Shown: positions 8,337-42,956 of the stretch, piece by piece
Layout: each line of letters begins with the position of its first letter
Position numbering within the stretch: position 1 is the first letter of the stretch
NCBI GenBank assembly: GCA_022511515.1
Contig: JAFLRP010000198.1
Coordinates: forward strand, 1-57,824
Direction of reading: 5' to 3'
Origin: Acutalibacter sp.
GTDB taxonomy: Bacteria; Bacillota; Clostridia; Oscillospirales; Acutalibacteraceae
DNA: 57,824 bases
Translations under genes and position numbers: made by a program
Notes under the pieces: generated by a model
The model's database searches: none
The model's input: only the letters and a program-made list of their open reading frames with translations
Told to the model about the DNA's origin: nothing

Positions 8337-8363
8337 TTTTCGCTTTAGCGAAAAACTCCTTTC
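8337..8363 (-). promoter_or_regulatory. Shine-Dalgarno / stem-loop module before the SDR gene
   Basis: Read on the minus strand: GAAAGGAG, then TTTTCGC-TAAA-GCGAAAA (stem-loop at 8337-8354), then 13 bases and the ATG at 8323. Unfolded, the Shine-Dalgarno is too far from the start; folding the stem-loop brings it near. GAAA of the Shine-Dalgarno could instead pair with TTTC of the 5' arm. Confidence 0.6.
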
Positions 8364-8470
8364 TTCGGGAATTGTGCTTTTCATTCAAAAGTTTCCCATG
8401 GGGAAACTTGCAGGAGTTTGACCGTATGTCAAACTCTTGCGAAGCAAAATGATTGCCGCAAAACCGAGAG
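8356..8470 (-). repeat. Intergenic repeat with consecutive hairpins (copy 1)
   Basis: Between rsmE and the SDR gene the minus strand holds two 9-bp perfect hairpins in a row, GAGTTTGAC-ATACG-GTCAAACTC and AAGTTTCCC-CAT-GGGAAACTT. Next comes the segment CAATTCCCGAAGAAAGGA (complement of 8357-8374). That 18-base segment recurs exactly at 41534-41551 and in diverged form near 42951. Confidence 0.65.
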
Positions 8471-8477
8471 TTAAAAT

Positions 8478-9209
8478 TTATTTTAACTCCAGCTCGCCTT
8501 TCTCGTACATGATGGCAGTCAGCGCCGCCAGAGGCGCGGTTTCCGTACGCAAAATCCGATTGCCCAGCGTCAGCAGCTTTGCGCCGTACTGCTCTGCCAG
8601 CGCCGCTTCCTCCGGGGCAAAGCCGCCCTCAGGCCCCACAAACAGGAACAGTCTGTCCCCTGCGGCGCGGAGGGCTTCTTTCAGGCTGTGAGTGCCGTTT
8701 TCGTAGCAGAACAGGATATCGCCTTGCTGAGAAGCGGCTGCCAGCGCTTCCTCCAACGTGACAGGGGGAAGCACCGCAGGGACGCGCCCTCTTCCACTTT
8801 GCTGGGCGGCTTCCAGAGCCACCTTTTGCAGCCGCTTTCCTTTTTTCGCCGCCGATTTTTCATCCGGGCGGGAAATGCACCGGGCGCTTTCCACCGGCAG
8901 AATTTCCCACGCGCCCAACTCCACCGCCTTTTGCACCACGGTCTCCAGTTTGTCCCCCTTAGGGCGGCACTGGCACACCGTCACCCGCACTTTGGGTTCG
9001 CCCCGGCTTTCCGTAACTTCATCCACCCGGACAAGAGCGCCGTCCTCCCGGCATTCCAGCACCGTGCCATGAAAATCCTTTCCCGTTCCGGCACAAAGAA
9101 TGGTTTTCTCTCCCGGACGCATCCGCAGAGATTTCACCATGTGCGCCCCGTTTTCTCCGCCCACGAAGTATTCTCCCGCAGGCTCTTCTTCTATAAAAAA
9201 TCTGGGCAT
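8478..9209 (-). CDS. rsmE: 16S rRNA (uracil1498-N3)-methyltransferase
   Basis: RsmE methylates N3 of U1498 in 16S rRNA in the assembled 30S subunit. The 243-residue protein has an N-terminal PUA-like beta domain (about 1-70) and a C-terminal SPOUT trefoil-knot domain. The knot motifs are FVGPEGGFAPEE (near residue 195) and LGNRILRTETAPLAAL (near 218), which bind S-adenosylmethionine. The frame is open upstream, but MPRFFIEEEPAG at 9209 is the family start and is preceded by a weak GAGAG. It is followed on the same strand by the SDR gene after a hairpin-rich gap. Confidence 0.95.
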   Translation of the reverse strand: MPRFFIEEEPAGEYFVGGENGAHMVKSLRMRPGEKTILCAGTGKDFHGTVLECREDGALVRVDEVTESRGEPKVRVTVCQCRPKGDKLETVVQKAVELGAWEILPVESARCISRPDEKSAAKKGKRLQKVALEAAQQSGRGRVPAVLPPVTLEEALAAASQQGDILFCYENGTHSLKEALRAAGDRLFLFVGPEGGFAPEEAALAEQYGAKLLTLGNRILRTETAPLAALTAIMYEKGELELK

Positions 9210-9298
9210 TTTTCTCTCACTTCCCCACCGGCTTTTTCTCTCAAAATTGTACCTGTTTTCCCGACGTTTTGTCAATGCTTTCCGCTCTTAGATAAAGC

Positions 9299-9327
9299 AT
9301 GACAAATTCATTTTTTTGTGATATGAT
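9299..9327 (+). promoter_or_regulatory. Promoter of the lipoprotein/two-component operon
   Basis: ATGACA (9299-9304) and TATGAT (9322-9327) are 17 bp apart, 37 bp before the ATG of the lipoprotein gene. Confidence 0.65.
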
Positions 9328-9364
9328 ATAAGTAATTATTGAAAAACGGAAAGGAGCAAGGCTG

Positions 9365-10744
9365 ATGAAAAGAAAAACAGCGGCAGCCATTCTGTCTTTT
9401 TGCCTGCTTTTGAGCCTTTCCGGCTGCTCCTTTGCTTCCTTTGACACGAAAAACCTCATGGCGCCGCCCAAGGTCAACGAGGATCAGCAGGCCATTCAGG
9501 AGCTGCTGCAAGGCGACCGCCCCGACATAGCTTTTGTGTATCCCCAGTCCGGGGAGTACCGCTCCGCCGTCACCATGGTGGATTTCACGGGGGACGGGAT
9601 AAAGGACGCTGTCGGCTTCTATTCCTCCGAGGCAGGCAATTCCGGTGGCGTGGAGGTACAGTTTTTGATCAAAACCGAAAACGGGTGGGAATCCGCCGCC
9701 ACCTTTCAGAATTCCGCACTGCAGGTGGACAGGGTCTGTTTCGGCACGCTGTCCCAAACAGGACATAACCTGATTTTGATCGGCTGGGGCAGCACAGCCG
9801 GCACCACGGGCCGCACTGCCGGAGCCAACGCCTATGTGTACAGCCCGGGCGGAGAAATCACGGAATATTCTCTCGGCACCTATGCGGAGCTGGCAGTGAC
9901 TGACTTTGACGAAGACGGCATTCACGAGGTCTTTACCGTGGACAAATTTCTCCCCGCCGAGGAGGAGGGAGACGAGCCCACTCCCGCACGGGCGAAGCTC
10001 TTTGCCTGGGTCGGCGGCAGTATGAAAGAAATTTCCTGCGCGGACGCGGACAATTCCATGGCCGGATATTCCTCCGCCGCTTTCGGCGGGCTCACCGCAT
10101 CCCTGTCCGGCGTGGTGCTGGACGGGGTCAAGGCAGACGGCAGCCTCAGCACCCAAATTTTTACCTTGGAGGACGGCAAACTGAAAAATTTCCCGGAGGA
10201 TGTAAACACCGAGGAATACAGCAATCCCTTCCTGCGGCCAAGCACGGCGTCCATTCTTTCCAGAGATATCAACGGCGATGGGCTGTTGGAAATTCCCCAG
10301 GTGTCCCTGCTGCCCGGTCTGCCGGAGGAAACTATGCCGGACGCCACCTGCTATCAGGTGGACTGGTGCCGTCTCCAGTCGAGCTCTCAATACCGCGTTG
10401 TGACCCGCACCATGATGAATCCCACCGAAAACTACTGGTTTCGGCTTCCCTATTCTTTGACCGGAGGGATCACATCCTATAATGATACTTCCCGCCGGAT
10501 GGTGACCTACACGGAAATTATCGAGGCCCCTGATCAGGATGGCAGTTATTTGCTGAGCGAGCCGCTGTTCGCCATTCGGGTATTCACGCGTTCGGCGTGG
10601 GAGAGCCGGGGGCCTACCAGCGGTTACGAACTGCTGGCCACCCAAAACGACTCTGTCTACGGAATACAGGTCTTCACCAAAAACAAATTCAGACTGCAGA
10701 GCATTTCCCAAATCAAACGGGATTTTAAATTGTTGAGTGAGTAA
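9365..10744 (+). CDS. Lipoprotein with VCBS/FG-GAP-like repeats, linked to a two-component system
   Basis: A 459-residue protein with a lipoprotein signal peptide ending in the lipobox LSGC (Cys about 21), so it is expected to be anchored on the outer face of the membrane. The body has three Asp-rich loops resembling calcium-binding FG-GAP/VCBS repeats: DFTGDGIKDAV (about residue 74), DFDEDGIHEVF (about 180) and DINGDGLLEIP (about 300). No enzyme motif is visible. AAAGGAG precedes the ATG. Its stop is 43 bp before a response regulator and histidine kinase. It may therefore be an accessory or sensor-modulating protein, which is inference from position. I do not recognise a named family. Confidence 0.85.
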   Translation: MKRKTAAAILSFCLLLSLSGCSFASFDTKNLMAPPKVNEDQQAIQELLQGDRPDIAFVYPQSGEYRSAVTMVDFTGDGIKDAVGFYSSEAGNSGGVEVQFLIKTENGWESAATFQNSALQVDRVCFGTLSQTGHNLILIGWGSTAGTTGRTAGANAYVYSPGGEITEYSLGTYAELAVTDFDEDGIHEVFTVDKFLPAEEEGDEPTPARAKLFAWVGGSMKEISCADADNSMAGYSSAAFGGLTASLSGVVLDGVKADGSLSTQIFTLEDGKLKNFPEDVNTEEYSNPFLRPSTASILSRDINGDGLLEIPQVSLLPGLPEETMPDATCYQVDWCRLQSSSQYRVVTRTMMNPTENYWFRLPYSLTGGITSYNDTSRRMVTYTEIIEAPDQDGSYLLSEPLFAIRVFTRSAWESRGPTSGYELLATQNDSVYGIQVFTKNKFRLQSISQIKRDFKLLSE

Positions 10745-10787
10745 TCATATGATCGGACTTATTCTTAACGAAAAGGAGCGATTATCC

Positions 10788-11492
10788 ATGAAAAAAATCC
10801 TGGTGGCGGAAGACGAACAAAATATCCGCGAGTTCGTGGTCATCAATTTGGAACGGGCGGGCTATGAAACATTGGAGGCCGAAAACGGCGAGCAGGCGTT
10901 GGAGCTCTACGAAAAGGCAAAGGGCGATATCGACGTGGCGGTGTTGGACATCATGATGCCCGGTTCTCTCGACGGTCTTGCCGTGTGTAAGGAATTGCGA
11001 AAACAAAACAGCTCCATCGGCATTATCATGCTCAGCGCCCGCACCCAGGAAATGGACAAGGTCAGCGGCCTGATGATGGGGGCGGACGATTACGTCACCA
11101 AGCCCTTCTCCCCCTCGGAGCTGGTAGCCCGGGTGGACGCGGTGTACCGCCGGGTGGCGTTGGCAGCCAAGCATCAGGAGGGCAGCCTCCGGGACGAGCT
11201 GCAATCCGGGGAATTTACCCTGAATCTCCGCAACCGCTCTCTGAAAAAGGGAGACAAGCCCATTGAGCTGACTCAAGTGGAATTTCAAATCATGGAATAT
11301 TTCTTTTCCAATCCCGGCGTTGCCCTGCCCCGAGGGGACATTCTGAAGCATGTCTGGGGCGGCGGCTATGTGGGCGAGGAAAAAATCGTGGACGTGAACA
11401 TCCGTCGCCTGCGCATGAAGGTGGAGGAGCAGCCCTCCGCCCCTGCCCACATTGTGACCGTCTGGGGCTTGGGCTATCGCTGGGACGTGTAA
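10788..11492 (+). CDS. OmpR/PhoB-family response regulator
   Basis: A 234-residue DNA-binding response regulator. The receiver domain (about 1-120) has the acidic pair in AEDEQN, the phosphoacceptor Asp54 (AVLDIMMPG) and the conserved lysine in YVTKPFSP. A winged-helix domain follows (about 140-232), with ELTQVEFQIMEYFFSNPG and the recognition region VDVNIRRLRMKVE. The ATG at 10788 has AAGGAG nine bases upstream; the open frame upstream overlaps the lipoprotein gene. Its partner kinase follows after 79 bp. The signal and target genes are unknown. Confidence 0.95.
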   Translation: MKKILVAEDEQNIREFVVINLERAGYETLEAENGEQALELYEKAKGDIDVAVLDIMMPGSLDGLAVCKELRKQNSSIGIIMLSARTQEMDKVSGLMMGADDYVTKPFSPSELVARVDAVYRRVALAAKHQEGSLRDELQSGEFTLNLRNRSLKKGDKPIELTQVEFQIMEYFFSNPGVALPRGDILKHVWGGGYVGEEKIVDVNIRRLRMKVEEQPSAPAHIVTVWGLGYRWDV

Positions 11493-11498
11493 AGGCGC

Positions 11499-11522
11499 TT
11501 CCGCACGATCTTTGTGCGGCGC
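11499..11522 (+). promoter_or_regulatory. CCGCAC/GTGCGG stem-loop between regulator and kinase genes
   Basis: The gap between the response regulator and kinase genes holds CCGCAC, a short loop, and GTGCGG, with extra GCGC pairing outside. There is no T-tract. The same core occurs at the accB-fabZ junction and before the M28 peptidase gene. Confidence 0.5.
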
Positions 11523-11571
11523 TGCTTTGAGTCCCGCTTATGAAGTTCCCTGATAGAAAGGAGGTTTCCCC

Positions 11572-13053
11572 GTGACAAAAACGAAAAAAAGCATTTCCCG
11601 CCGGTGGTTCGTGAACACCGTGGGCATTGCCCTTGTCATTCTTTCCATCTCCATTTTCGCATTGTCCATCACGGTGCAGACCTCCACTTATACCGGCATT
11701 CAGCAGTCCTTAACCGGCCGTGTGGACGAGCTTTTAAACTGGCTGGGCGGCACGAGAAGCGCTTCGGAATTCAACGCTATCGCTCGGGACTACATCGAGC
11801 ATTTCCCCGACAAAAACGACATGGAGATCATGGCCTTAAACCGCACCGGCAGCGTGTTTGCCACCTCCACCGGCTTTGAGCCGGACCACCAGCAGGACAT
11901 GCCGGATTACGAAACCGCCCTCAAAAGCGACGACAATTCCGGCCAATGGGTGGGCGAGTTAGATTCCGGTGAGCGCGTTATGGCCATCACCAGAGTGATC
12001 CGGGACAGCGGCGGCGGACTGACCGGCTCTGTCCGGTATCTTGTTTCTCTGGAAAAGGCCGACCAGCAAATCAGCCGCATCACCTTAGCGCTCATTGCCG
12101 GGGGCGTGTTCATCATGCTGCTGATTACCTTTTCCGGCATTTACTTTATCCGCTCCATTCTGGTCCCCGTCCGGCAGGTCAGCGCCGGCGCGAAGCAGAT
12201 CGCCGAGGGCAATTTCGCCGTGCGGATCGGCAAGCAGCGGGACGACGAGTTAGGTGAGCTCTGCGATTCCATCAACGACATGGCGGGAGAGCTGGCCGCC
12301 ACCGAACAGATGAAAAACGATTTCATTTCCTCCGTCTCCCACGAATTGCGCACCCCTTTGACCGCCATCAAAGGCTGGGCGGAAACGCTGCACTCCGGTA
12401 CAGACCCCCAGACCACCGACAAGGGCGTGAACGTCATCATCCGGGAATCGGAACGGCTTTCGGGACTGGTGGAGGAGCTGTTGGACTTCTCCCGGCTGCA
12501 AAGCGGGCGAATGCGCCTGCGGGTCACCCGGCTGGACATTCTGGCGGAGCTGGACGAGGCGGTGTACCTGTTTACCGAGCGGGCCCGCACAGAGAACAAG
12601 CGGCTGGACTACGAGGAGGACAAGGTGCTTTCTCCTGTCTACGGTGACGTGGACAGACTGCGGCAGGTGTTCGTCAACATTTTGGACAACGCTTTGAAAT
12701 ACACGGAAAGCGGCGGGGAGATCACGGTGACCTCCATGGAAGAAACCGGCTGGGTCAAGGTCGTCACAAAAGACACCGGCTGCGGCATTCCGGCGGAGCA
12801 CCTGCCCAATATCAAGAAGAAATTCTACAAGGCAAATCAGTTGGTGCGGGGCTCCGGCATCGGTCTTGCCATGGCGGATGAAATCGTCACCATGCACGGC
12901 GGAAAGCTGGACGTGACAAGTCAGGAGGGTGTGGGCACGACTGTCACCATTTCCCTGCCCGCCTGCCAAACCCTAGAGGCCCGCCCGGGGCTTACGGACA
13001 CCCCGGAAATTCAGAAATTACTGCAAGAAAGGAAACGGAAAGAGCATGAGTAA
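11572..13053 (+). CDS. Membrane sensor histidine kinase
   Basis: A 493-residue sensor kinase paired with the preceding response regulator. Two membrane segments (about 14-36 and 169-193) flank an extracellular sensor region of about 130 residues. A HAMP linker follows (about 190-245), then the HisKA domain with phosphoacceptor His257 (SSVSHELRTPLTAIKG). The ATPase domain has the N box NILDNALKYTESGG, DTGCGIP and GSGIGLAM. The start is GTG with AAAGGAGG seven bases upstream. The last 8 bp overlap the start of the YqhQ gene, so the two are translationally coupled. Confidence 0.95.
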   Translation: MTKTKKSISRRWFVNTVGIALVILSISIFALSITVQTSTYTGIQQSLTGRVDELLNWLGGTRSASEFNAIARDYIEHFPDKNDMEIMALNRTGSVFATSTGFEPDHQQDMPDYETALKSDDNSGQWVGELDSGERVMAITRVIRDSGGGLTGSVRYLVSLEKADQQISRITLALIAGGVFIMLLITFSGIYFIRSILVPVRQVSAGAKQIAEGNFAVRIGKQRDDELGELCDSINDMAGELAATEQMKNDFISSVSHELRTPLTAIKGWAETLHSGTDPQTTDKGVNVIIRESERLSGLVEELLDFSRLQSGRMRLRVTRLDILAELDEAVYLFTERARTENKRLDYEEDKVLSPVYGDVDRLRQVFVNILDNALKYTESGGEITVTSMEETGWVKVVTKDTGCGIPAEHLPNIKKKFYKANQLVRGSGIGLAMADEIVTMHGGKLDVTSQEGVGTTVTISLPACQTLEARPGLTDTPEIQKLLQERKRKEHE

Positions 13054-13984
13054 AAAAATCACATCCATCGGCGGTCAGGCCCTGATGGAGGGCATAATGA
13101 TGGTGGGTCCCCACAAGACCGTGGCGGCCTTTTGCAGCGAGAAAGGGGAGATCTCCACGGAGGAGATCACTTCTCCCCGGCTGACCCAAAAATATCCCAT
13201 TCTGGGGAAACCCTTTATCCGGGGCATTTTCGCCATGATTGATTCCCTGCGGCTGGGCTACAAGGCCCTGTCCCTCTCCGCCGATAAGATCACCGAGGAC
13301 GTGGGGGAGGAGGAACTCACCGGCCTTGACAAATGGCTGGACGAGCACTTGGGCGAGAAGATGACCGGGGTCATTATGGGCGTCGCCTCCGTGCTGGGCG
13401 TGGCGCTGGCGATCCTCTTATTTTTCCTGCTGCCCACTTGGCTGTTCAATCTGCTCCAAAGCGCTGTTCCCGCCGAGATTTCCGGCTGGCGCTCCATCTT
13501 CGAGGGCGTGTTGCGCATTGGGATTTTTGTGGGCTACATTCTGCTGATTTCCAGATTGCCGGATATCAAGCGCACCTTTCAGTATCACGGCGCGGAGCAC
13601 AAGACCATTTTCTGCTACGAAAACGACCTGCCCCTGACCGTGGAAAACGTGAAAAAGCAAGGGCGGTTTCACCCCCGCTGCGGCACCAGCTTTATGATTC
13701 TCATGCTGCTTTTGAGTATTATCGTGGGCTTTTTTATTCCCTTTTCCAACCCCTTCCTGCGGACGGCGGTGAAGCTCCTCTGTATCCCCGTCATTGTGAA
13801 TATCGGCTATGAAATTCAGAAGTTTTCCGCCCGCCATCCGGGCAACTGTATCCGCTTTTTCGTGAAGCCGGGACTGTGGATGCAGCGCATCACCGTGAAA
13901 GAGCCGGACGACAAGATGATCGAGGCCGCCATCGCCGCCATGAATGCCGTCATTCCCGAAAATGGCGAGGACCTGATCTCATGA
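13046..13984 (+). CDS. YqhQ/DUF1385 membrane protein
   Basis: A 312-residue member of the DUF1385 (YqhQ) family, whose biochemical role is not established. The family signature YHGAEHKTIFCYE is near residue 175 and RFHPRCGTSF follows near 210. Membrane segments lie at about 108-130, 152-170 and 218-240. The N-terminus begins with the conserved SIGGQALMEGIMMVGP. It overlaps the kinase gene by 8 bp and prmC by 4 bp (ATGA). The yqhQ-prmC adjacency is common in Firmicutes, so linkage to the two-component genes may be incidental. Confidence 0.93.
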   Translation: MSKKITSIGGQALMEGIMMVGPHKTVAAFCSEKGEISTEEITSPRLTQKYPILGKPFIRGIFAMIDSLRLGYKALSLSADKITEDVGEEELTGLDKWLDEHLGEKMTGVIMGVASVLGVALAILLFFLLPTWLFNLLQSAVPAEISGWRSIFEGVLRIGIFVGYILLISRLPDIKRTFQYHGAEHKTIFCYENDLPLTVENVKKQGRFHPRCGTSFMILMLLLSIIVGFFIPFSNPFLRTAVKLLCIPVIVNIGYEIQKFSARHPGNCIRFFVKPGLWMQRITVKEPDDKMIEAAIAAMNAVIPENGEDLIS

Positions 13985-14838: not shown

Positions 14839-14854
14839 GACGGGAGAAACACCT

Positions 14855-15355: not shown

Positions 15356-15366
15356 TTTTGAATTCC

Positions 15367-15397: not shown

Positions 15398-15406
15398 CAT
15401 TTCCTC

Positions 15407-16569: not shown

Positions 16570-16595
16570 AAAGGAGGCTTTCGCTTCAGCGAAAG
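16570..16595 (+). promoter_or_regulatory. Shine-Dalgarno / stem-loop module before the ABC permease gene
   Basis: AAAGGAGG (16570-16577) is followed at once by CTTTCGC-TTCA-GCGAAAG (16578-16595), then 12 bases and the ATG. GAAAG ahead of the stem-loop (16569-16573) repeats its 3' arm and could pair with CTTTC instead. Confidence 0.65.
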
Positions 16596-16607
16596 CAAGT
16601 TAAAAAA

Positions 16608-17258
16608 ATGAAACGACTACTGAAAAAAGAATTTCTTCTGGCCGCGCACCCCACGGGCTACCTGTTTTTAGGGCTGGCAGCCATGATGCTGATCCCGTCC
16701 TATCCTTTGACCGTCACCTTTTTCTACCCCTGTCTGGGCATTTTTTTCGTCTGCATGACCGCCCGGGAAAATCGGGATATCTTTTACACCGTGCTGCTGC
16801 CGGTGAAAAAGCGGGACGCGGTAAAGGCCCGGTTTTTGCTGTGCGGGTTCTTTCAGGCGGGGCAAATCGTGCTCTGTATTCCCTTTCTTTTTCTCCGGGC
16901 GCTGTACCCGCCGGAGGGGAACATCGTGGGGCTGGACGCAAATCTCGCTTTGCTGGGCTTCGGTCTCGCGCTGATGGGGCTTTTCAACCTGATTTTCTTC
17001 CCCCTGCATTACAAAAACCCCGTTAAAATCGGCGTGCCCTTCCTGCTGGGATCGGCGGCGTTGTTTTTTGGCATCGGCATTTCCGAAGCCCTGCCCCATT
17101 TCGTCCCCTTTGTCCGGGACAACTTGGACACCGCCCTCTTTCTCCACCTGCCGGAAAAGTTTCTTTGCTTTTTCTTGGGCGCGGCCATTTACGCCCTGCT
17201 GACTGCCCTCGCCTGCCGCAAAAGTATGCGCCTTTTGGAAGCGCTGGACCTCGCCTGA
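16608..17258 (+). CDS. ABC-2 type transporter permease
   Basis: A 216-residue integral membrane protein with about six hydrophobic segments (for example about 14-55 in two blocks, 80-98, 108-130, 140-160 and 182-204). It fits the small ABC-2 permeases that pair with the preceding ATPase. The charged N-terminus MKRLLKKEF and the loop ENRDIFYTVLLPVKKRD resemble ABC-2 proteins that start with a coupling helix. Its Shine-Dalgarno is separated from the ATG by an 18-base stem-loop, unlike its neighbours. The substrate is unknown. Confidence 0.85.
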   Translation: MKRLLKKEFLLAAHPTGYLFLGLAAMMLIPSYPLTVTFFYPCLGIFFVCMTARENRDIFYTVLLPVKKRDAVKARFLLCGFFQAGQIVLCIPFLFLRALYPPEGNIVGLDANLALLGFGLALMGLFNLIFFPLHYKNPVKIGVPFLLGSAALFFGIGISEALPHFVPFVRDNLDTALFLHLPEKFLCFFLGAAIYALLTALACRKSMRLLEALDLA

Positions 17259-19966: not shown

Positions 19967-21505
19967 TTACGGCGTTTCTTTGGGAAAAAGTCCCTCCGGG
20001 GTCAGCTCATACAGCGTCTCACAAACTTCGGAAAGATACTTCCTGTCGTGGGACACGCTGAGAATGCACCCGCCGAATTCCTTTAAGATTTTCCGAATCA
20101 CCGGCCCGGACAGGGGACTGAAATTCCGAGTGGGCTCGTCGAGGATCAGCACATTGCTGCCGTCTAAAATCATTTTGAGGAAAAACAGCTTGGCCTTTTG
20201 CCCGCCGGAGAGCTCCGCGATGCTGTGCTCGCATTCCTCCGCCGTGTACTTCATGCTGCCAAGGTAGGTTTTTACCCGGGTGAGCTCCGCTTTTTCCGAG
20301 GATTTTGCCAAGAATTCCACCGGCGTTTCTCTTTCGTCCACCGTCTCCCCGTAATCTTGCGGCATGTAGACGGCGTTCAGGTCGGGTCTGGCAAGCAGCT
20401 CCTGTGCCAGTTTCCTCAAAAAAGTGGTCTTTCCCGCACCGTTTTTGCCGATGATGCAGATGTGCTCCGGCCCCCGGACAAAAAGTTTTATTTTTTCAGC
20501 CAAGACCTTTTCCCCCACGGCCAGTTCGGGAAGGTCAAATTCAATCACCGTTTTGCCGGCGGGCAGGGTGACGGCAGGGTCGAAGCCCACTAAAATAGCG
20601 TCCTCGCTTTCCGGCATTTGGGTCATGTCCTCCCGTTCCCGGTCCATGCGGTGCTCCAGCGCCTTCACAGATTTCATCTTCTTTTTCAGCAGCCGCCCAC
20701 CGCTGGGATTTCCCCGGCTGATGGCGTTTTGTTCGTGCTCTACCCGCTGATAAATTTGCCGGAATTTTTCCAGTTTTTTCCGTTCTTCCTCCCGCTCTTT
20801 CCTTGCCATCTGCTCCTGAGACGCAAATTTGCTGAGCCGCTCATCCACGTACTGCCGATAGCCGATTTTTTGCACCGTCCACCGGGGCAGCGTCTTTTTC
20901 CTGAGCTGCTCCAAGTGAAGAATGGCCGTGGCGGTGTTTTCCAGCAGCGTTTCGTCGTGGGAGATGTACAGCACCGGCTGGGGACAATTTTGAATAAATC
21001 GTTCCAGCCATTCCAGCGTTTCGATGTCCAAGTCGTTGGAGGGTTCGTCCAGCAGGTAGCAGTCCGGGCGGCGAAGGGTCAAGAGCGCCGCTTGTAATTT
21101 TACCTTTTCCCCGCCGGACAGGGTACCCACCGGGCGGTCGGAATACAACAGCTCCTGGGAAAATCCCAGCTCTGATGCGATATCCGCGATTTCCTTCGGC
21201 GTGCTTTCCAAAAAAGCCGGTTCCTGACAGCAGAATTCGTATGCGGTTTTCTCCCTGTCCGCCGGGGGCAATTCCTGCGGCAAATACCCTAAAATCATCC
21301 CGGATTTCCGAATGGTTCCGCTCCAATCGGCGTAGCCCTCCACCAGAGCTTCATCATAGATCAGCTTTAAGAGGGTGGATTTTCCGTTTCCTTCCTCGCC
21401 GATGACGGCCATCCTGTCTCCGGGGTTCAGGGAAAGGGTCAAATCTCTGACCAGTTCCCGCAGGTCCTTTCGCATGGAGATATTCAAATGCTCAATTTGC
21501 AGCAT
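19967..21505 (-). CDS. ABC-F family ATPase, candidate antibiotic-resistance (ribosome protection) type
   Basis: A 512-residue soluble protein with two ATPase domains and no membrane segment, as in ABC-F factors that act on the ribosome E site. Domain 1 has Walker A GEEGNGKST, signature LSGGEK and YLLDEPSNDLD. A charged helical linker follows (about 235-320, rich in Lys/Arg/Glu). Domain 2 has Walker A GKNGAGKTT, signature LSGGQKAK and Walker B LILDEPTRNFSPLS, an unusual replacement of the common DEPTNHLD. I chose MLQIEHLNI at 21505; MKGDFRSG at 21562 is in frame but lacks a site. The attenuator-like leader suggests drug-induced expression. The protected drug class is unknown. Confidence 0.9.
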   Translation of the reverse strand: MLQIEHLNISMRKDLRELVRDLTLSLNPGDRMAVIGEEGNGKSTLLKLIYDEALVEGYADWSGTIRKSGMILGYLPQELPPADREKTAYEFCCQEPAFLESTPKEIADIASELGFSQELLYSDRPVGTLSGGEKVKLQAALLTLRRPDCYLLDEPSNDLDIETLEWLERFIQNCPQPVLYISHDETLLENTATAILHLEQLRKKTLPRWTVQKIGYRQYVDERLSKFASQEQMARKEREEERKKLEKFRQIYQRVEHEQNAISRGNPSGGRLLKKKMKSVKALEHRMDREREDMTQMPESEDAILVGFDPAVTLPAGKTVIEFDLPELAVGEKVLAEKIKLFVRGPEHICIIGKNGAGKTTFLRKLAQELLARPDLNAVYMPQDYGETVDERETPVEFLAKSSEKAELTRVKTYLGSMKYTAEECEHSIAELSGGQKAKLFFLKMILDGSNVLILDEPTRNFSPLSGPVIRKILKEFGGCILSVSHDRKYLSEVCETLYELTPEGLFPKETP

Positions 21506-21519: not shown

Positions 21520-21559
21520 TTTCGCCGCGGCGAAATTTGCCGCTGCGAAAATCTCCTTT
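21520..21559 (-). promoter_or_regulatory. Shine-Dalgarno / long stem-loop module before the ABC-F gene
   Basis: Minus strand: AAAGGAG (complement of 21553-21559), then a 31-base stem-loop (21520-21550). Its outer pairs are TTTCGC/GCGAAA and its inner pairs GCGGC/GCCGC. Then 14 bases and the ATG at 21505. Confidence 0.65.
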
Positions 21560-33860: not shown

Positions 33861-33886
33861 AAAGGTGGCTTTTGCCAACGCGAAAG
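33861..33886 (+). promoter_or_regulatory. Shine-Dalgarno / stem-loop module before the DUF58 gene
   Basis: AAAGGTGG (33861-33868), then CTTTTGC-CAAC-GCGAAAG (33869-33886, one G-U pair), then 14 bases and the ATG at 33901. An in-frame GTG at 33892 is an alternative start. Confidence 0.6.
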
Positions 33887-33900
33887 CAATCGTGATATCC

Positions 33901-34953
33901 ATGAAAATCAAACCCTATCGGGGATCTCTCTGCCTCTACGGAATGCTGTTTCTGGCATCCGTCATTTGGATCAGTCTCAGCGGCGGCTCGCTCCCCTACA
34001 TGACATTTTACACCGTACTGTGCGTCCCCTTTGTATCGGTGGTCTATGTGGGGATCGTCAATCTCACCATCCGTTTTCATCAGGAGATGCCCTCTCACAA
34101 GGTCACAAAAGGAGAGCTTTCCACCTACCGGGTACGAGTGGAAAATGTGGGGTTTTTGCCTTTTGTAAAAATCAATCTGCTGTTTGAGACAAGGCTCGCA
34201 AGTCTTTCCGGACTGTCCGCAGAGCAGGAGATTTCCCTCCGCCCCGATGACCGGTGGGAGCAAAGCACGGCGCTCATCTGCCGGTATGCGGGGACTTACA
34301 ACATCGGCGTCACTGCCTATCAAATCGAGGATTGTTTCCATCTTTTCCGAGTAGAGCGGCCGATCCCCACGCCTTTTCGGGCCATTGTGCGTCCCCGGCT
34401 TCCCGAGGAGGCCGGTCCGCTGCCGGAGTTAGACGCGATCCGGAATCTTCTGGAAATGCAGACAAGTTTAACGGAATCCACCCTTGGGAGCGATCTCCGG
34501 GAATACCGGCAGGGCGACAGTCCCCGGCGGATCCATTGGAAAAATTCCGCACGGACCCAAAAGCTTCTGACCCGTCTGCCGGAGCCCAAGGAAATGCAGC
34601 TCATCCAGGTAGTCATGATCCCCCTGCCTCAGACCCAGGAATTCAGCGACGTGATCCGCCGGGACCGTTTTCTGGAAACGGCTGTCTCTGTGGCATACGA
34701 TTTCTGCCGGCAGAAGAAGCCGGCGGTGTTCTATGATCCGAAAGGCCGAATCCTCAGAAAAACGGTGGATTCTTATGAGAGCTTTTGGGAGTTCTATGAA
34801 AACCTGCCCGATGAAATCCGGGGCGTTGAAGAGATGGACGACAAGGCTTGGCAGCTCTGGATTGAGGAAAATTGTGTCAAGGAGGGCGGCGTGATCCTCC
34901 TGAAAGAATCCGATGACAGCGAAGCGCTTCTCAGCGTCTACACGGTGTATTGA
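33901..34953 (+). CDS. DUF58 domain membrane protein
   Basis: A 350-residue protein with two membrane segments near the N-terminus (about 10-30 and 36-58) and a cytoplasmic C-terminal DUF58 region. The family signature DLREYRQGDSPRRIHWKNSA lies near residue 200, followed by KLLTRLPEPK. DUF58 proteins resemble von Willebrand-type modules and pair with MoxR ATPases. It lies 46 bp after MoxR and 9 bp before the transglutaminase gene. Its Shine-Dalgarno is separated from the ATG by a stem-loop. Confidence 0.92.
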   Translation: MKIKPYRGSLCLYGMLFLASVIWISLSGGSLPYMTFYTVLCVPFVSVVYVGIVNLTIRFHQEMPSHKVTKGELSTYRVRVENVGFLPFVKINLLFETRLASLSGLSAEQEISLRPDDRWEQSTALICRYAGTYNIGVTAYQIEDCFHLFRVERPIPTPFRAIVRPRLPEEAGPLPELDAIRNLLEMQTSLTESTLGSDLREYRQGDSPRRIHWKNSARTQKLLTRLPEPKEMQLIQVVMIPLPQTQEFSDVIRRDRFLETAVSVAYDFCRQKKPAVFYDPKGRILRKTVDSYESFWEFYENLPDEIRGVEEMDDKAWQLWIEENCVKEGGVILLKESDDSEALLSVYTVY

Positions 34954-37224: not shown

Positions 37225-37309
37225 TTTTCCTTTTCAAACGGAAAGATCTTTTCAAAAGGCTCAATTTCCGTTATACTAAACTAAAGTCCATTTTTAGGAG
37301 GAGCTTATC

Positions 37310-37702: not shown

Positions 37703-37712
37703 TTTTCAAAAG

Positions 37713-37750
37713 AAAAGCCCGCAGACTTGTTTCAGTCTGCGGGCTTTTTT
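37713..37750. terminator. Bidirectional terminator between the PNPOx-like gene and trxB
   Basis: A stem of 14-15 bp (AAAGCCCGCAGACT and its complement, short loop) has T-rich flanks on both strands and separates convergent genes. Confidence 0.92.
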
Positions 37751-37780
37751 ATTCCTCTTTCCTCGCCGATTTTCTGATCC

Positions 37781-38719
37781 TTAGCTCTTTTTACTTAGGA
37801 ACTCCTCGGCAAAATAGGCCGCGACAGCGCCGTCTGCGGCGGCAGTCACCACTTGGCGCAGGGGCTTTTTCCGCAAATCCCCTACGGCGAATACGCCGGG
37901 AAGCTCTGTGCGGGTGGTCTCATCCGCCGGGATATAGCCGGCCTCATCCAAGGCGAGCTGCCCTTGAAACAGAGCTGTTTCCGGTACGTGACCTACCGCA
38001 ATGAAAAGGCCGTCGCAGGAGATCTCCTGCTCGTTTCCGGTGTTTTTTTCCGAGACGATCAACCCGGTCAAAGAGGCTTCGTGTTTCAAAGCCGTAACTT
38101 GGCTATTCCACACAAATTCGATATTCCCCGCTTGCTCCAAGGGCCCGTGGTAGGATTTGGACGCCCGCAGGGCGTCCCGCCGGTGAATGAGATACACCTT
38201 TTCGCACAGCCGGGAAAGATACAGCGCATCGGCGGCGGCAGTGTTTCCTCCGCCCACCACGGCCACGGTCTTGCCGCGATAGAACATACCGTCACAGGTG
38301 GCGCAATAAGACACGCCCTTGCCCCGCAGCTCTTTCTCCCCGGGCACGCCCAGCTCTCTGGGGACTGCCCCTGCGGCAAGCACCACGGTTTTGGCAAGAA
38401 AAGTCTCTTTTTTCGTCTGCAATTCCTTGATTTCCCCGGCAAGGGAACAGGAGATCACCTCGGCCAGCTTCGATTTCGCGCCGAATTTCTCCGCGCCCTG
38501 CTTCATTTTCATGGCCAGCTCAAAACCGTTGATCCCTTCCGAAAAGCCGGGGTAATTTTCTATCACGTCGGTGGTGGCCAACTGCCCGCCGGGAGACAGT
38601 TTTTCCAAAAGCAGCACGGAAAGCCCCGCCCGAGCTCCATACAGCGCCGCTGTGTACCCGGCAGGTCCGCCGCCCAGCACGACCATATCAAAGATTTCCT
38701 GTTCCATGGTCTTTTCCAT
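37781..38719 (-). CDS. trxB: Thioredoxin reductase
   Basis: TrxB reduces thioredoxin with NADPH via FAD and a redox disulfide. The 312-residue protein has the FAD motif GGGPAGYTAALYGARAG (about 16-32), the active-site CATC (Cys139, Cys142), the second nucleotide motif VGGGNTAAADA, and HRRDALRAS, which favours NADPH. The C-terminal FAD motif is GVFAVGDLR. The gene lies 3 bp after trxA. Two in-frame ATGs four codons apart (38719 and 38707) both lack a strong Shine-Dalgarno, so translation may depend on coupling to trxA. Confidence 0.96.
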   Translation of the reverse strand: MEKTMEQEIFDMVVLGGGPAGYTAALYGARAGLSVLLLEKLSPGGQLATTDVIENYPGFSEGINGFELAMKMKQGAEKFGAKSKLAEVISCSLAGEIKELQTKKETFLAKTVVLAAGAVPRELGVPGEKELRGKGVSYCATCDGMFYRGKTVAVVGGGNTAAADALYLSRLCEKVYLIHRRDALRASKSYHGPLEQAGNIEFVWNSQVTALKHEASLTGLIVSEKNTGNEQEISCDGLFIAVGHVPETALFQGQLALDEAGYIPADETTRTELPGVFAVGDLRKKPLRQVVTAAADGAVAAYFAEEFLSKKS

Positions 38720-38722
38720 ACA

Positions 38723-39031
38723 TTACAGAAGTTCTTCCAAAGCTTCCTTGGGCTGCACACCCACCAATGTGGCGGCCGCTTCGCCGTTCTGGAACAAAAT
38801 GGCAGTAGGAATGCTCATCACCCCGTAGCGGGCGGCAAGCTCCTGCTCCTCGTCCACGTTGATTTTGCCCACCTTGACCTTGCCCTCGTTTTCCTCGGCA
38901 AATTCATCTACGATGGGAGAAAACATCCGGCAGGGGCCGCACCAGCCGGCCCAGAAATCCACCAGTACCGGCAGATCCGAACCCAAAACCTCTTGCTCAA
39001 AATTGTCCTTCGTCACCGTCAAAATTTCCAT
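38723..39031 (-). CDS. trxA: Thioredoxin
   Basis: A 102-residue thioredoxin with the active site WCGPC (Cys31, Cys34) in FWAGWCGPCR and the cis-proline loop SIPTAILF (about 73). AGAAAGGA precedes the ATG. It is encoded with its reductase trxB 3 bp downstream, so the two form a self-contained disulfide-reducing pair in the cytoplasm. The 220-bp gap upstream holds no gene, only inverted repeats near 39135-39160 and a possible -10 TATAGT near 39101. Confidence 0.97.
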   Translation of the reverse strand: MEILTVTKDNFEQEVLGSDLPVLVDFWAGWCGPCRMFSPIVDEFAEENEGKVKVGKINVDEEQELAARYGVMSIPTAILFQNGEAAATLVGVQPKEALEELL

Positions 39032-39253
39032 TTCTTTTTGTCCTTTCTCTATTTTAGCTTTAAAAAAACTTTTCCCTTAGTTTGTGTTTTGCGCACGGTA
39101 GCACTATAAAAGGGGCGGAAATTCGCCTGCGCGAAGAAGTTTCCCGCAGAAAACTTCCGCAGAATGTTGGGGGAAGCTATTTTGTTTCTCCCTTTTTTAT
39201 ATGTCTTTTTTAGAATGCCCAAATCATCTGGCTTTTTTCACATCTTTATGAAA

Positions 39254-40342
39254 TTACGGAAAAACCAAGTCGCAGGCTTCCCGAATCTTCATGCCCTCGA
39301 AATAGGTGTTTTCCTTGGGGATCCACTCCTCCAAAAACCTCCGGAGCATGAATCCGCCGTTGCGTTCCAAAATCCGATTGCTCTGCTCTGCCGGAGAAAC
39401 GGACAGAAACACCTTGACATCATAATATTCCTGAAGGTCCGGATGCATACTATAGGACCCCTCAAAGATGTTGATCTGCTTCGGCTCTACTTTGATTTCT
39501 TCGCCCAGTTGCATAACAGAACAGTCAAAGGGGCGGTAGGCAAAAGGTTTTTTCTCGCGGACAGGCTCGCAAATCTCCTCCCGGAAACGCTCTCTGTCCA
39601 TGTTGCCGCCCACCTCCTGCAGCCGCTCCGGGGTGCGTTTTTCCAAAGGCAGGAAGAAGTCGTCTGCGTGGAACACATTGCAGTCAAAGAGAGTTGTCAG
39701 CAGATTCGCGAGAGCGGTCTTCCCCGCACCGCTGTTTCCGTCGATGGCCACATTCACGCTGCCTTTTTCTCTTAAACAGTTTTCAATGGCGGCATACAGC
39801 GGCAGGTAATCCTGATATTCCCTCCGGATCACCCGGTAGGCCGGCTCGTAAGCCTGGCGGTATTCCTCGCTGTGATGCACCGGCTGATAGCCCCGCTCTT
39901 TGTACTCTTTGAGATACGCTTCTATCTCCTCCGCCGTGAAAGGGAACAGGCTAGGGTCTTCTCTGCTCAGCTCCAAAAACAGCTTCAGTTTTTCCTCCAA
40001 AGCAAACCATGCCGCCTTCTGCACATACCGGGAGGACACCACGAACAGGCGGTTTATCATTTCCGGAGAAATCACCTTGCTGGAGGAGAGATTTATCCTG
40101 CAAAAGTGCCCGCACAGCGGAAAGAAATAGGGCTTTTTCTTCTGCCTTTCCGTCAGGTGTTCAATTTCTTCCTTGAGATAGGCAAGAGATGACTCCCCAT
40201 CGGAAATCAAATGCTCCCCGCCGAATTCGGACTGGTACAGGTGCTTCACGTAATCCCTGACCTGCGCCCGAGGGAACTGTTCCGCACAGTCCAGCAGGAA
40301 TTGCCGTGTTTCCCAGATATCCTGTTTGTCTACGTTTCTCAT
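39254..40342 (-). CDS. Uridine kinase-like P-loop protein with an N-terminal domain of unknown function
   Basis: A 362-residue two-part protein. The C-terminal half (about 175-362) is a nucleoside/uridine kinase-like P-loop domain with Walker A IDGNSGAGKTALANLL (about residue 198), HADDFFLPLEKR (about 227) and IFEGSYSMHPDL (about 290). The N-terminal 170 residues are a helical domain with the motif DYVKHLYQSEFGGEHLISDG, which I cannot name. The kinase substrate is unknown; the HADDFF segment resembles substrate-binding motifs of uridine kinases. The start has AAGGAAG eight bases upstream and also a stem-loop/AAAAGGAGG module further up. Confidence 0.8.
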   Translation of the reverse strand: MRNVDKQDIWETRQFLLDCAEQFPRAQVRDYVKHLYQSEFGGEHLISDGESSLAYLKEEIEHLTERQKKKPYFFPLCGHFCRINLSSSKVISPEMINRLFVVSSRYVQKAAWFALEEKLKLFLELSREDPSLFPFTAEEIEAYLKEYKERGYQPVHHSEEYRQAYEPAYRVIRREYQDYLPLYAAIENCLREKGSVNVAIDGNSGAGKTALANLLTTLFDCNVFHADDFFLPLEKRTPERLQEVGGNMDRERFREEICEPVREKKPFAYRPFDCSVMQLGEEIKVEPKQINIFEGSYSMHPDLQEYYDVKVFLSVSPAEQSNRILERNGGFMLRRFLEEWIPKENTYFEGMKIREACDLVFP

Positions 40343-40359
40343 GGCTTTTTCTTCCTTGT

Positions 40360-40385
40360 TTTCGCTTTCGCGAAAGCCTCCTTTT
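40360..40385 (-). promoter_or_regulatory. Shine-Dalgarno / stem-loop module before the P-loop kinase gene
   Basis: Minus strand: AAAAGGAGG, then TTTCGC-GAAA-GCGAAA (complement of 40360-40375), then 17 bases and the ATG at 40342. Unlike the other copies, a second Shine-Dalgarno (AAGGAAG) lies between stem-loop and ATG. Confidence 0.5.
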
Positions 40386-40426
40386 CCAAAGTCAAAATGA
40401 ATTTCCGCTCTTCCTTCCCTGTATGG

Positions 40427-41146
40427 TCACGAAAGTCCCAAAAAGTGTATGAGCTCCTCAAAATTTCCTTTGGGCGTGCCGGAAATATCCTTGTTTTTTT
40501 CATTGATGAGGCAGTCTGTCACAAGAAACACGGGCATTCCCAACTCTTCCGCCGCCAGATCTTCCTCCGCGTCGTTTCCCACCATCAGGCATTCCTCCGG
40601 GCGCTTCCCGGTCCTGCTCAAGATCTCCCGGAAATAGTCCGGGTTGGGCTTACAATAGGAGTAATCCTCATAGCTGGTGACCTCCAGAAAATCCGCTAAG
40701 GTCAGCTCCAGCCAGGAAAGCCGGGTCTCCACCGCAACTTTTGGAAACAGCGGATTGGTGGCAAGGATCACGTCAATTCCCCGCGATTTTAAGCCATGTA
40801 TCACCTGCTTTGCCAGAGGATTTGTCCCCACCACGTCTTTGACCCGGTGGAATTCCTCGGCATAGAAGCGGTCAAATACCGGGCGAAGTCTGTTTTCCTC
40901 TTCGTTCATTTCCTGTGTGAACACCTGCCAGAAGCGGGCGTCGTTTTTCACCCTGCCATCGTTTTTTACCATGGCGGCAGTGCCCTTCCACACGGCGGAT
41001 ACCAGCTTTTTGCTGTCCGTGCAGCCGTGTTCCGCGCCCTTTTTCGCCAATTCTCCGAAATAGGTCTTGACGAACACATTCTCGTCCATGGGCAGCAGCG
41101 TGCCGTCCAAGTCAAACAGCACGGCGGTGATTTTTTTATCCGGCAT
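40427..41146 (-). CDS. HAD-superfamily phosphatase
   Basis: A 239-residue haloacid dehalogenase-like hydrolase. Motif I is LFDLDGTLLP (nucleophile and acid Asp, about residues 11-20), motif II is ILATNPLF, the motif III lysine is in SYCKPNPDYF, and motif IV is MVGNDAEEDL. The helical cap between motifs I and II (about 25-105) is that of subfamily I. Substrate unknown; a sugar or nucleotide phosphate is likely. It starts 5 bp after the DUF1667 gene, so it is in the same transcript as the oxidoreductase genes. Confidence 0.92.
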   Translation of the reverse strand: MPDKKITAVLFDLDGTLLPMDENVFVKTYFGELAKKGAEHGCTDSKKLVSAVWKGTAAMVKNDGRVKNDARFWQVFTQEMNEEENRLRPVFDRFYAEEFHRVKDVVGTNPLAKQVIHGLKSRGIDVILATNPLFPKVAVETRLSWLELTLADFLEVTSYEDYSYCKPNPDYFREILSRTGKRPEECLMVGNDAEEDLAAEELGMPVFLVTDCLINEKNKDISGTPKGNFEELIHFLGLS

Positions 41147-41151
41147 TTTTT

Positions 41152-41523
41152 CTATTCCTCCCTGCCCACCGCCTTGGAAGCGATGAGATTCACTCCCGTG
41201 CCGGCAACATTCTCAATGACGATATCGCCGATTTTTACCGGGGCAGCGATCGCCGCCTTCCGGATCTCCTCCATACAGTCAAAGATTTTTTCCTTGGGAA
41301 TGTCTGTGGCAGTGCGCACGGGGATCACCGGGGCTTTCCCGCCCAGCACCCGCACGGTAGAGGTGACTGTCCGCGTGGGGGCAGTGACCTCCCGCTTGCC
41401 GTATTCTTCTCCCCGCTTGCAGGTGTTTCCCGAAACGGAAAGCACTTCAAGGGCGTCATTTACTTCCACCCGCAGAGGGCAGCCCAAGGGGCAGCCGATA
41501 CAAATCAGTTCACGAGTTTCCAT
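41152..41523 (-). CDS. DUF1667 protein, partner of GlpA/GlpB-like oxidoreductases
   Basis: A 123-residue DUF1667 protein. The N-terminal cysteines CIGCPLGCPL and a further NTCKRGEEYG (about residue 35) suggest an iron-sulfur cluster. The central VRVLGGKAPVIPVRT and a C-terminal VIENVAGTGVNLIAS are typical. The family is regularly encoded after GlpA- and GlpB-like flavoproteins, as here, and probably completes an electron-transfer complex in place of GlpC. METRELICIGC at 41523 has AAAGGA nine bases upstream. Confidence 0.92.
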   Translation of the reverse strand: METRELICIGCPLGCPLRVEVNDALEVLSVSGNTCKRGEEYGKREVTAPTRTVTSTVRVLGGKAPVIPVRTATDIPKEKIFDCMEEIRKAAIAAPVKIGDIVIENVAGTGVNLIASKAVGREE

Positions 41524-41533
41524 ATTTACCAAT

Positions 41534-41605
41534 CCTTTCTTCGGGAATTGCGCAATTCATTCAAAAAATTTCCTACAGGAAAACTTTTGCGAATCAAAAC
41601 CGTGA
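41534..41605 (-). repeat. Intergenic repeat (copy 2)
   Basis: The segment shares 18 identical bases (41534-41551) with 8357-8374 and continues with a similar TTCATTCAAAA and a TTTCC/GGAAA hairpin. It carries the Shine-Dalgarno of the DUF1667 gene. A palindrome GAATTGCGCAATTC lies inside it. A shorter, more diverged copy is before the 42916 start. Confidence 0.65.
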
Positions 41606-41641
41606 AGTAAAAACTATTTTTTCTAAAAGAAACAATGGTTT

Positions 41642-42916
41642 TTACTCTTGCCCGGCCCAAACGGTGATCTCTTTTTCATTTCCGGTGAACCATTCCTTCC
41701 GAAGGATCACCTGCTCCATTTCTCCGGGAGCCATGACCGGGCGTTTCCGGCGCAGAAGCTCCTTGCCGTCCGCCTGTACCCGCACAGTGGCGTTCCGCAG
41801 ATTTTGCCCCACTCGGAAGCGCACCACCAACTGGTCTTCCATTCGATCCCTGTTCAGCGTTACGGGCACGGTGTAACGCACAGCGCCTTGGGGAAGCAAG
41901 GGGATTTTTCCCTCCGCTGTCTGTTCCGTTCCCTGCGCCTTCCTTTGGACATAGGCGGCGCAGTTTTTCCCCGCCTGCTCCGCTTCTTCGGACACATAAT
42001 CCACCAGATCGTGAACGTGCAGCACATTGCCGCAAGCGAACACCCCGGGAATGCTGGTCTCCAGACTTTCGTTGACGGTAGGTCCGCCGGTGACAGGGGA
42101 CAGGTCCACGCCGATTTCTTTTGACAGCTCGTTCTCGGGAAGCAAACCCACCGACAGCAGCAGCGTGTCACAGGGAATTTCTTCCTCCGTGCCGGGGATG
42201 GGCTTCATCTTTTCATCCACTTCGGCAATCGTCACGCCGGTGACCCGTTTCTTTCCGTGAATATCCACCACGGTGTGGCTCAGTTTCAAGGGGATGCCGT
42301 AATCGTTCAGGCACTGGACGATGTTCCGCTTCAGTCCGCCGGAGTAGGGCTGGATCTCCGCCACGCATTTGACCTTCGCACCTTCCAGCGTCATGCGGCG
42401 GGCCATGATGAGCCCAATATCGCCGCTGCCGAGAATCACTACTTCCTTGCCGGGGAGATATCCTTCCCGGTTTACCAACCTTTGGGCTGTGCCCGCAGAG
42501 AAAATTCCCGCCGGGCGGAAACCGGGGGTATTCAGTGCCCCTCTGGGGCGTTCCCGGCAGCCCATGGCCAAAACCGCGGCCTTGGCTTCGATTTGCAAGA
42601 GGCCATCCTGTCGGCTGACAGAGGTGATCAAAATACCGTCCCCCTGCCGCTCCAGCGACACTACCGTCGTTCCCAGCAGAGCCGGGATGTTTCTTTCCTC
42701 CGCCTGCTCAATATACCGGGCAGCGTACTCCGGGCCGGTCAGCTCCTCCTTGAAGGTGTGGAGGCCAAAGCCGTTGTGGATACACTGGTTCAAAATACCG
42801 CCCAGCTCCTGTTCGCGCTCTAAAATCAGCACATCTTCCACGCCGCTGTCCCGTGCGGCAATGGCCGCCGCCAATCCGGCAGGACCGCCGCCAATCACAA
42901 CAATATCGTGTTTCAT
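41642..42916 (-). CDS. FAD-dependent oxidoreductase (GlpB-like)
   Basis: A 424-residue flavoprotein with the FAD motif VVIGGGPAGLAAAIAARDSG (about 5-24), the NAD(P) motif VVILGSGDIGLIMARR (about 155) and a C-terminal FAD motif GVFACGNVLHVHDLVDYVS. A C-terminal beta domain (about 330-424) follows. Relatives sit between GlpA-like and DUF1667 genes in Firmicutes and are taken as the second subunit of an anaerobic glycerol-3-phosphate dehydrogenase-like complex. Its Shine-Dalgarno is separated from the ATG by a CTTTCGC/GCGAAAG stem-loop. Confidence 0.9.
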   Translation of the reverse strand: MKHDIVVIGGGPAGLAAAIAARDSGVEDVLILEREQELGGILNQCIHNGFGLHTFKEELTGPEYAARYIEQAEERNIPALLGTTVVSLERQGDGILITSVSRQDGLLQIEAKAAVLAMGCRERPRGALNTPGFRPAGIFSAGTAQRLVNREGYLPGKEVVILGSGDIGLIMARRMTLEGAKVKCVAEIQPYSGGLKRNIVQCLNDYGIPLKLSHTVVDIHGKKRVTGVTIAEVDEKMKPIPGTEEEIPCDTLLLSVGLLPENELSKEIGVDLSPVTGGPTVNESLETSIPGVFACGNVLHVHDLVDYVSEEAEQAGKNCAAYVQRKAQGTEQTAEGKIPLLPQGAVRYTVPVTLNRDRMEDQLVVRFRVGQNLRNATVRVQADGKELLRRKRPVMAPGEMEQVILRKEWFTGNEKEITVWAGQE

Positions 42917-42929
42917 ATTTTTCCCAACG

Positions 42930-42956
42930 CTTTCGCTTTAGCGAAAGTTTTCCTTT
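42930..42956 (-). promoter_or_regulatory. Shine-Dalgarno / stem-loop module before the GlpB-like gene
   Basis: Minus strand: GAAAGGAAAA, then CTTTCGC-TAAA-GCGAAAG (complement of 42930-42947), then 13 bases and the ATG at 42916. Confidence 0.65.

Follow-up and report, generated by a model that had tools for sequence, protein, structure and literature searches.

In phage T4, structure in the leaders of genes 38 and 25 brings the Shine-Dalgarno sequence (SD) nearer to the AUG, from 22 to 5 nt and from 27 to 11 nt, respectively, and this split-site structure is kept in close T-even phages, as described in PMC3014915. In Beggiatoaceae, TAACTGA repeats stand directly before the starts of functionally unlinked genes and a role in translation has been suspected (PMC4679880). 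Here, we describe a structured leader found in a 57,824-nt stretch of Acutalibacter sp. DNA (GenBank assembly GCA_022511515.1, contig JAFLRP010000198.1), hereafter the window, and throughout the genome to which it belongs. This folded leader appears to replace the ordinary ribosome-binding site before the starts of unrelated genes, in up to dozens of copies per genome. Repetitive extragenic palindromic and bacterial interspersed mosaic elements (REP/BIME) are likewise small, non-coding, palindromic, dispersed and very uneven between related genomes, and the element resembles them in all of these features. Unlike that of REP/BIME, its placement is linked to start codons and has a single orientation, and no Y1 transposase (PF01797) was found in its genome. 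As in T4 genes 38 and 25 (PMC3014915), the SD is linearly too far from the AUG and an intervening structure would draw them close, but T4 offers two single genes, whereas here one hairpin leader was found at 65 places of one genome. Further differences from the T4 sites are that the full-form leader adds a junction and a 5' hairpin, and that a second half-site often follows the hairpin. The element shares with the TAACTGA repeats (PMC4679880) that it is dispersed, short, located before the starts of functionally mixed genes and patchy among lineages, but the repeats are heptamers with little SD character, whereas the leader described here is structured and has an extended SD. No such element was described in the titles and abstract openings of the literature searched or, by a search for six terms, in the main text of PMC8040213, the tables of which may contain one.

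Taken as a whole, the element is probably a dispersed structured leader inserted in the SD-AUG spacer, with its hairpin looped out and with two half-sites that match the tail of the 16S rRNA. The initial annotation had described six SD/stem-loop/start modules in the window, and all six were found in place, each with its SD, stem-loop and ATG. The strict pattern AAAGGNNNNTTTCGCNNNNGCGAAA had 41 exact matches in the same (own) genome, 19 forward and 22 reverse, and the pattern read backwards had none there. The strict pattern was absent from all 28 congeners and from 8 other genomes of the family, and it had one match in one of 23 further order genomes (G045:C1:216773-216797, AAAGGAAATTTTCGCTTTCGCGAAA). 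A covariance model, R1, was built on 37 copies (34 own and 3 foreign, which match by construction) and found 66 hairpin-bearing places in the own genome. Two of these were one element on overlapping contig ends, leaving 65 distinct copies; a weaker place at C12:550 (E 0.03), which resembles another copy, stands outside this number.

Placement before start codons was the rule, since 61 of the 65 hairpin copies preceded a plausible start. Among the 61 copies with a perfect stem, 57 had an ATG 4-21 nt downstream that opened an open reading frame (ORF) of at least 60 codons, or of at least 30 and open to the locus end, and the commonest distance was 13 nt. Of 20,000 positions drawn at random from the stretches around the copies, 9.3% satisfied the same criterion. 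Four imperfect-stem copies, outside this count of 61, also preceded an ORF, and the best NCBIfam hit of the protein downstream of one of them (L091) was RlmH. The exceptions were C162:9009, which had no qualifying ORF, C197:4271, where a second copy sits between the hairpin and the gene, C66:24908 and C153:8946. C66:24908 (L060 1209-1271) was a decayed copy in which ATG had become ATA, with an SD-like GGGAGG and a new ATG downstream; the best hit of the downstream protein was glycogen phosphorylase. The proposal of a module dispersed at the starts of unrelated genes was supported, as was enrichment at start codons, a check that the initial annotation had suggested. An extra ATG right after the stem was also considered as the true start. 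It was often in frame at the 13-nt spacing, but it was not taken as the start because it was absent or out of frame in other copies, and in foreign copies GG was kept better than this ATG.

In its full form, the leader had the order 5' hairpin (hpA), three-way junction, AGAAAGGA, spacer hairpin (hpB), 2-3 nt, a GGTnAT-like half-site, about 4 nt and ATG. Foreign full copies had the same order, with AGAAAGGA, spacer hairpin, nATGGTnAT and ATG, and other foreign copies were shorter. Many own copies carried further hairpins 5' of the SD. Among the own loci L001-L032 and L037-L096, chains of the hairpin modules AAGTTTCCCnnnGGGAAACTT, GAGTTTGACC..GGTCAAACTC and AAGTTCGTC..GACGAACTT were located inside or in place of the three-way junction. 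In the congener G015, some copies had TTTCCC/GGGAAA at the position of the third helix of the junction, the hairpin was often longer with AGAAAGGA and TATGGTCAT retained, and GGT followed the hairpin in 22 of 22 hairpin copies. As at T4 gene 25, the SD was farther from the AUG than is normal in the linear sequence, a stable hairpin separated the two, and the structure was conserved in relatives.

Conservation of the hairpin and the junction was supported by compensatory changes across genomes; the initial annotation had named stem covariation across orthologues as a check. In alignment A5, an unpicked set of 67 distinct own rows fitted to the covariance model, 98.1% of spacer-stem cells were paired and double changes occurred at 4 of 7 pairs, compared with 0.5 in shuffles (0 of 500 shuffles reached this). 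In A6, which held 25 of 28 foreign member loci and 15 own copies chosen for diversity, compensated stems among them, 98.7% of the cells were paired and double changes occurred at 7 of 8 pairs (0 of 500 shuffles). In A8, made from 28 of 35 copies, the remaining seven being without a clear hpA or full junction, 90.0% of the cells of junction and spacer hairpin were paired compared with 82.3% in shuffles, and double changes occurred at 19 of 27 pairs compared with 9.1 (0 of 500). Because the A8 structure was drawn from one copy (L108), the comparison with slid controls is biased towards it. The V-ATPase subunit E-like genes of the own genome (L068) and G015 (L189), whose proteins are 78% identical, both had a copy of the element, and their stems, GCTTTCGC/GCGAAAGC and GCTTTTGC/GCAAAAGC, respectively, differed by a compensated change at one locus. 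L212 and L042 (58% protein identity) may be a second orthologous pair; the two pairs account for 2 of 20 G015 proteins compared with own element-bearing genes, and two more matches reached only 22%. The best RNAalifold consensus of A8 differed from the junction plus spacer hairpin, and paired the upstream GGCUUUCG of the junction (columns 43-48) with the 3' arm of the spacer hairpin (columns 145-150). This GGCUUUCG resembles the 5' arm of the spacer hairpin, a possible second conformation. The leader was unmatched when the window was compared with 4227 Rfam 15 models at the gathering threshold (5S rRNA was the sole match) and when 16 loci were compared at E<=1 (RNase P, tRNAs and one weak match overlapping a tRNA).

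The initial annotation had also proposed two competing folds acting as a switch, in which the SD would be hidden by pairing of its GAAAG with CUUUC, the 5' arm, in competition with the spacer hairpin. The sequence permits this alternative helix in most copies (94.0% of cells can pair in the 40 copies of A6), and a helix so small could arise transiently during transcription. However, it showed no clear covariation, with one double-changed pair compared with 0.9 in shuffles (348 of 500 shuffles reached it); its covariation score was reached by 9 of 500 shuffles. It was broken at one pair in 8 of the 40 copies, where compensation keeps the main stem. The ensemble probability of the alternative helix exceeded 0.5 in none of the 63 own leaders and in 4 of 52 foreign ones, while that of the spacer hairpin exceeded 0.8 in 58 of 63 and 44 of 52, respectively (own L088 and L091, without an SD match, were left out, and the foreign set was 52 of 58 leaders). 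These values agree with the annotated claim that folding of the stem-loop shortens the distance from SD to start, and translation may depend on this fold. GAAAGG is more simply explained as a match to CCTTTC of the 16S tail, and the modelled pairing of an upstream UUCC with GGAG is a likelier mask of the SD than GAAAG:CUUUC. The switch is therefore highly improbable. In the minimum-energy folds of the window copies at 8337, 16570 and 42930, UUCC just 5' of the SD can pair with GGAG or GGAA.

In the arrangement that we consider probable, the spacer hairpin would fold on the mRNA and be looped out, and the 16S tail would pair with AGAAAGGA upstream and GGUnAU downstream of it, which jointly approach the full complement, AGAAAGGAGGUGAU. 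With bipartite pairing around a looped-out hairpin, the second half-site would therefore lie at an ordinary distance from the AUG. A pattern for the 16S end was matched in 7 of 29 genus genomes, at 10 places in all; each place read GGCTGGATCACCTCCTTTCT, the complement of which is AGAAAGGAGGTGATC. In both the own and the foreign sets, pairing with the 16S tail was stronger for the segment after the hairpin than for shuffles of its letters (0 of 200 shuffles each). GG was present in 46 of 51 foreign copies and its end lay 8 nt before the ATG in 40 of 51, and the base preceding it varied (ATGGT, ACGGT, GAGGT).

The strengths of the upstream and downstream half-sites traded off. Their pairing energies were anticorrelated in own copies (rho -0.39, p 0.002, n=59) and in foreign copies (rho -0.29, p 0.04, n=51). 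Among the 58 of 65 own copies that could be parsed, a downstream GG was present in 8 of 41 with an intact AAAGGAG compared with 13 of 17 with a weakened SD (Fisher p 7e-5), and a 14th weakened-SD copy (L083) had a GGT that fell outside the spacing rule used. Hairpin-less copies had the SD at ordinary spacing at window position 41528 (9 nt) and at C44:13141 (8 nt), and by eye also at C146:10349, C147:4572 and C151:4440. In 7 of 27 congener leaders of der, all of them orthologues, an AGAAAGG-like SD without a hairpin was followed by GGT at a distance of 1-3 nt. The best reading of the split ribosome-binding site is a multi-copy analogue of the split site of T4 gene 25.

The element would enter the spacer between the SD and the AUG of a gene, disable the old SD, which would be left as a relict 5' of the element, and supply its own replacement SD. 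SD-like words were enriched next to hpA. Words abutting it were found in 29 of 37 own flanks compared with 11 of 37 in the control, and in 18 of 26 foreign flanks compared with 3 of 26 (hpA was recognised in 26 of the 52 foreign leaders, out of 58, that were used). Pairing of the 22 nt reaching hpA with the 16S tail, set against the stretch 40 nt further upstream, was -9.07 compared with -6.38 in own copies (p 7e-4) and -8.60 compared with -4.77 in foreign copies (p 3e-4), and was stronger than letter shuffles in both sets (0 of 200). Among the own relict words, 26 of 29 ended 0-5 nt before hpA; by a 20-nt rule, 17 foreign words were found, of which 12 ended 1-5 nt before hpA. The last 12 nt before hpA differed in all 37 own and 26 foreign flanks, and the relict SD is therefore not simply the end of the element. 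Nested copies were present at C197 and in the foreign genome G108 (L154), in each case between the hairpin of the first copy and the gene.

Orthologous sites were compared at der, for which one of the 28 congeners had no match. None of the 27 congener der leaders had the hairpin, and in 24 of them, under a loose rule, an SD-like word preceded the start by 4-13 nt. The own der copy has no hpA, and the relict-SD and empty-site tests therefore concern different loci. Similar copies at unrelated loci and the absence of the element from the orthologous der site in 27 congeners were as expected of a non-autonomous mobile element. Y1 transposase was present in 9 of 29 genus genomes; mobilisation of the RAYT/IS200 kind was set aside for the own genome, in which none was found. 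Carriage by phage was likewise set aside, as a strict pattern had no match in viral contigs. From the sequences compared, insertion into the spacer between SD and AUG is the most likely way in which the element arrived, and the mobile ribosome-binding element raised by the initial annotation is plausible. It is possible, if not quite probable, that the element represents a class of mobile elements that has the SD-AUG spacer as its target and survives there through a 3' replacement site split by the hairpin (AGAAAGGA / GGUGAU).

Several observations weigh against insertion into the spacer followed by bipartite pairing. hpA was recognised at 37 of the 66 own places; the other 29 had no hpA, and no place was lost as a repeat. 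Seven of the 37 own flanks share GAGG(G)CA, so the relict SD could partly be the end of the element. No Y1 transposase, the sole transposase family searched, was found in the own genome, which is 93.7% complete. The 16S-end pattern, with 18 of 20 letters fixed, was unmatched in the own genome and 21 others. Among 59 own copies, 35 had no GG after the hairpin, and the second half-site is therefore not essential in them; foreign copies with an intact AAAGGAGG (e.g., L097, L098, L099 and L114) also retain the downstream GG. Even with the hairpin folded, about 13 nt separate the end of the upstream SD from the ATG, more than is usual. The half-site and energy tests overstate independence, because the copies are related by descent. 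Outside the element, AGAAAGG-nn-GGT showed no excess in own stretches (GGT 3, other second halves 1-4), and a general habit of split SDs was not found there.

The element recurs patchily in other genomes, three of which are Clostridia metagenome-assembled genomes (MAGs). Relatives were found with the strict pattern and with the covariance models R1 and R2. The strict pattern matched four records in genome contigs, namely a Christensenellaceae, a Clostridia and an Oscillospiraceae MAG and a Muribaculaceae palindrome. The genomes of the three Clostridia MAGs had 17, 7 and 14 model matches at E<=0.01. The Muribaculaceae match (L035 5126-5159) was rejected as a long palindrome, AAAAAGGAGGCTTTCGC..GCGAAAGCCTCCTTTTT, which matches the strict pattern on both strands, and the two model matches of that genome were this site on both strands. 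At E<=0.01, the own genome had 65 matches (hairpin-less copies included), G015 had 23, G028 had 3, G008 had 2, G013 had 1 and the 24 other genus genomes had none. Among the relatives of G108 at E<=0.001, G108 had 26, G071 had 5 and 38 others had none. In a class sample at E<=1e-4, the element was found in 4 of 391 genomes, own included; 14 candidates were scored per genome, and counts and absences in this sample are therefore rough. The search of the genome and its relatives that the initial annotation had suggested thus gave 65 own copies and a patchy recurrence elsewhere. Patchiness and big differences in copy number between congeners are typical of selfish repeats, and would suit an inert palindromic repeat that is merely tolerated before genes. 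Such a repeat is hardly credible, however, as neither the orientation and start-codon placement nor the compensatory changes nor the relict SD would be expected of it.

The downstream genes were unrelated in function, as had been annotated. The proteins scanned were 7 window proteins and 30 of 55 other own proteins; of the latter, some had no hit at 1e-20, some a hit below the curated cut-off, and several were cut by the stretch end. The best hits of these 30 included eno, purA, der, accA, pyrB, uvrB, ispD/F, cca, rlmH and whiA, and the functional coherence expected of a riboswitch-type regulator was not found among the proteins scanned. These genes bear on another explanation, that the leader binds a protein or ligand controlling the translation of many genes, that copies spread because they are useful, and that the SD hairpin is the expression platform. 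Such a regulon would fit the compensatory change that keeps junction and hairpin across genomes and the RNAalifold pairing of the upstream GGCUUUCG with the 3' arm. We consider it unlikely, given the functional scatter (eno, purA, der, accA and others), the four of six window copies without junction and hpA, and the 24 of 28 congeners without a match.

In the six window copies, the gap from stem to ATG was 11-16 nt. In the leader of the SDR gene, on the (-) strand, the upstream SD half-site AAAGGAG was located at 8356-8362 and the spacer hairpin at 8337-8355, 13 nt from the ATG at 8321-8323. Its upstream leader (8390-8489) carried the 5' hairpin GAGTTAAAATAAATTTTAACTC at 8468-8489 and additional hairpins after it at 8437-8449, 8414-8436 and 8390-8408. 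At 16570-16596 (+), AAAGGAG and the hairpin GCTTTCGC-TTCA-GCGAAAGC were followed after 11 nt by the ATG at 16608 of an ABC-2 type membrane protein gene (PF13346). At 21520-21559 (-), AAAGGAG and a longer hairpin, in line with the differing loops already noted by the initial annotation, preceded by 14 nt the ATG at 21503-21505 of a gene encoding an ABC-F-like protein with two ABC_tran stretches. At 33861-33887 (+), AAAGGTGG and the hairpin GCTTTTGC-CAAC-GCGAAAGC, with the one G-U pair reported before, stood 13 nt from the ATG at 33901 of a DUF58 gene.

At 40359-40385 (-), AAAAGGAGG and a hairpin preceded the ATG at 40340-40342 of a gene without a Pfam hit, and the second, closer SD previously annotated was present as a GGA nearer the ATG, in the downstream GG half-site AAGGAAG at 40351-40357 (-). 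At 42930-42956 (-), AAAGGAA and a hairpin preceded the ATG at 42914-42916 of a gene of the pyridine nucleotide-disulphide oxidoreductase family, with the downstream half-site TTGGGA at 42922-42927 (-) and an upstream-leader remnant, GGTTTTGC-TTT-GCAAAACC, at 42974-42992 (-). The hairpin-less relative at 41528-41584 (-) had an upstream hairpin at 41566-41584, then AGAAAGGA-TT-GGTAAAT-ATG, and belonged to a DUF1667 gene with its ATG at 41521-41523 (-). This relative, the upstream leader and the GG half-site 3' of the hairpin came in addition to the modules first described. Elsewhere in the window, an 84-nt unit in four tandem copies, 65-96% alike to the reference copy, was found near the contig end (56483-56820), as was a 5S rRNA truncated by the contig end (57738-57824).

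Single phage genes are known to have split ribosome-binding sites, and the one described here seems to have spread across the genome of a bacterium. If this is true, dozens of genes in one genome, housekeeping genes included, would be translated through a Shine-Dalgarno sequence split by a looped-out hairpin. The copies would be dozens of natural replicates that vary in hairpin length, half-site strength and spacing, in which the limits of stretch from SD to AUG could be tested directly. Gene callers that expect a linear SD spacing may mis-score such starts. If true, targeting of the SD-AUG spacer would also make that spacer an insertion niche, one that, to our knowledge, is not occupied by other repeats.

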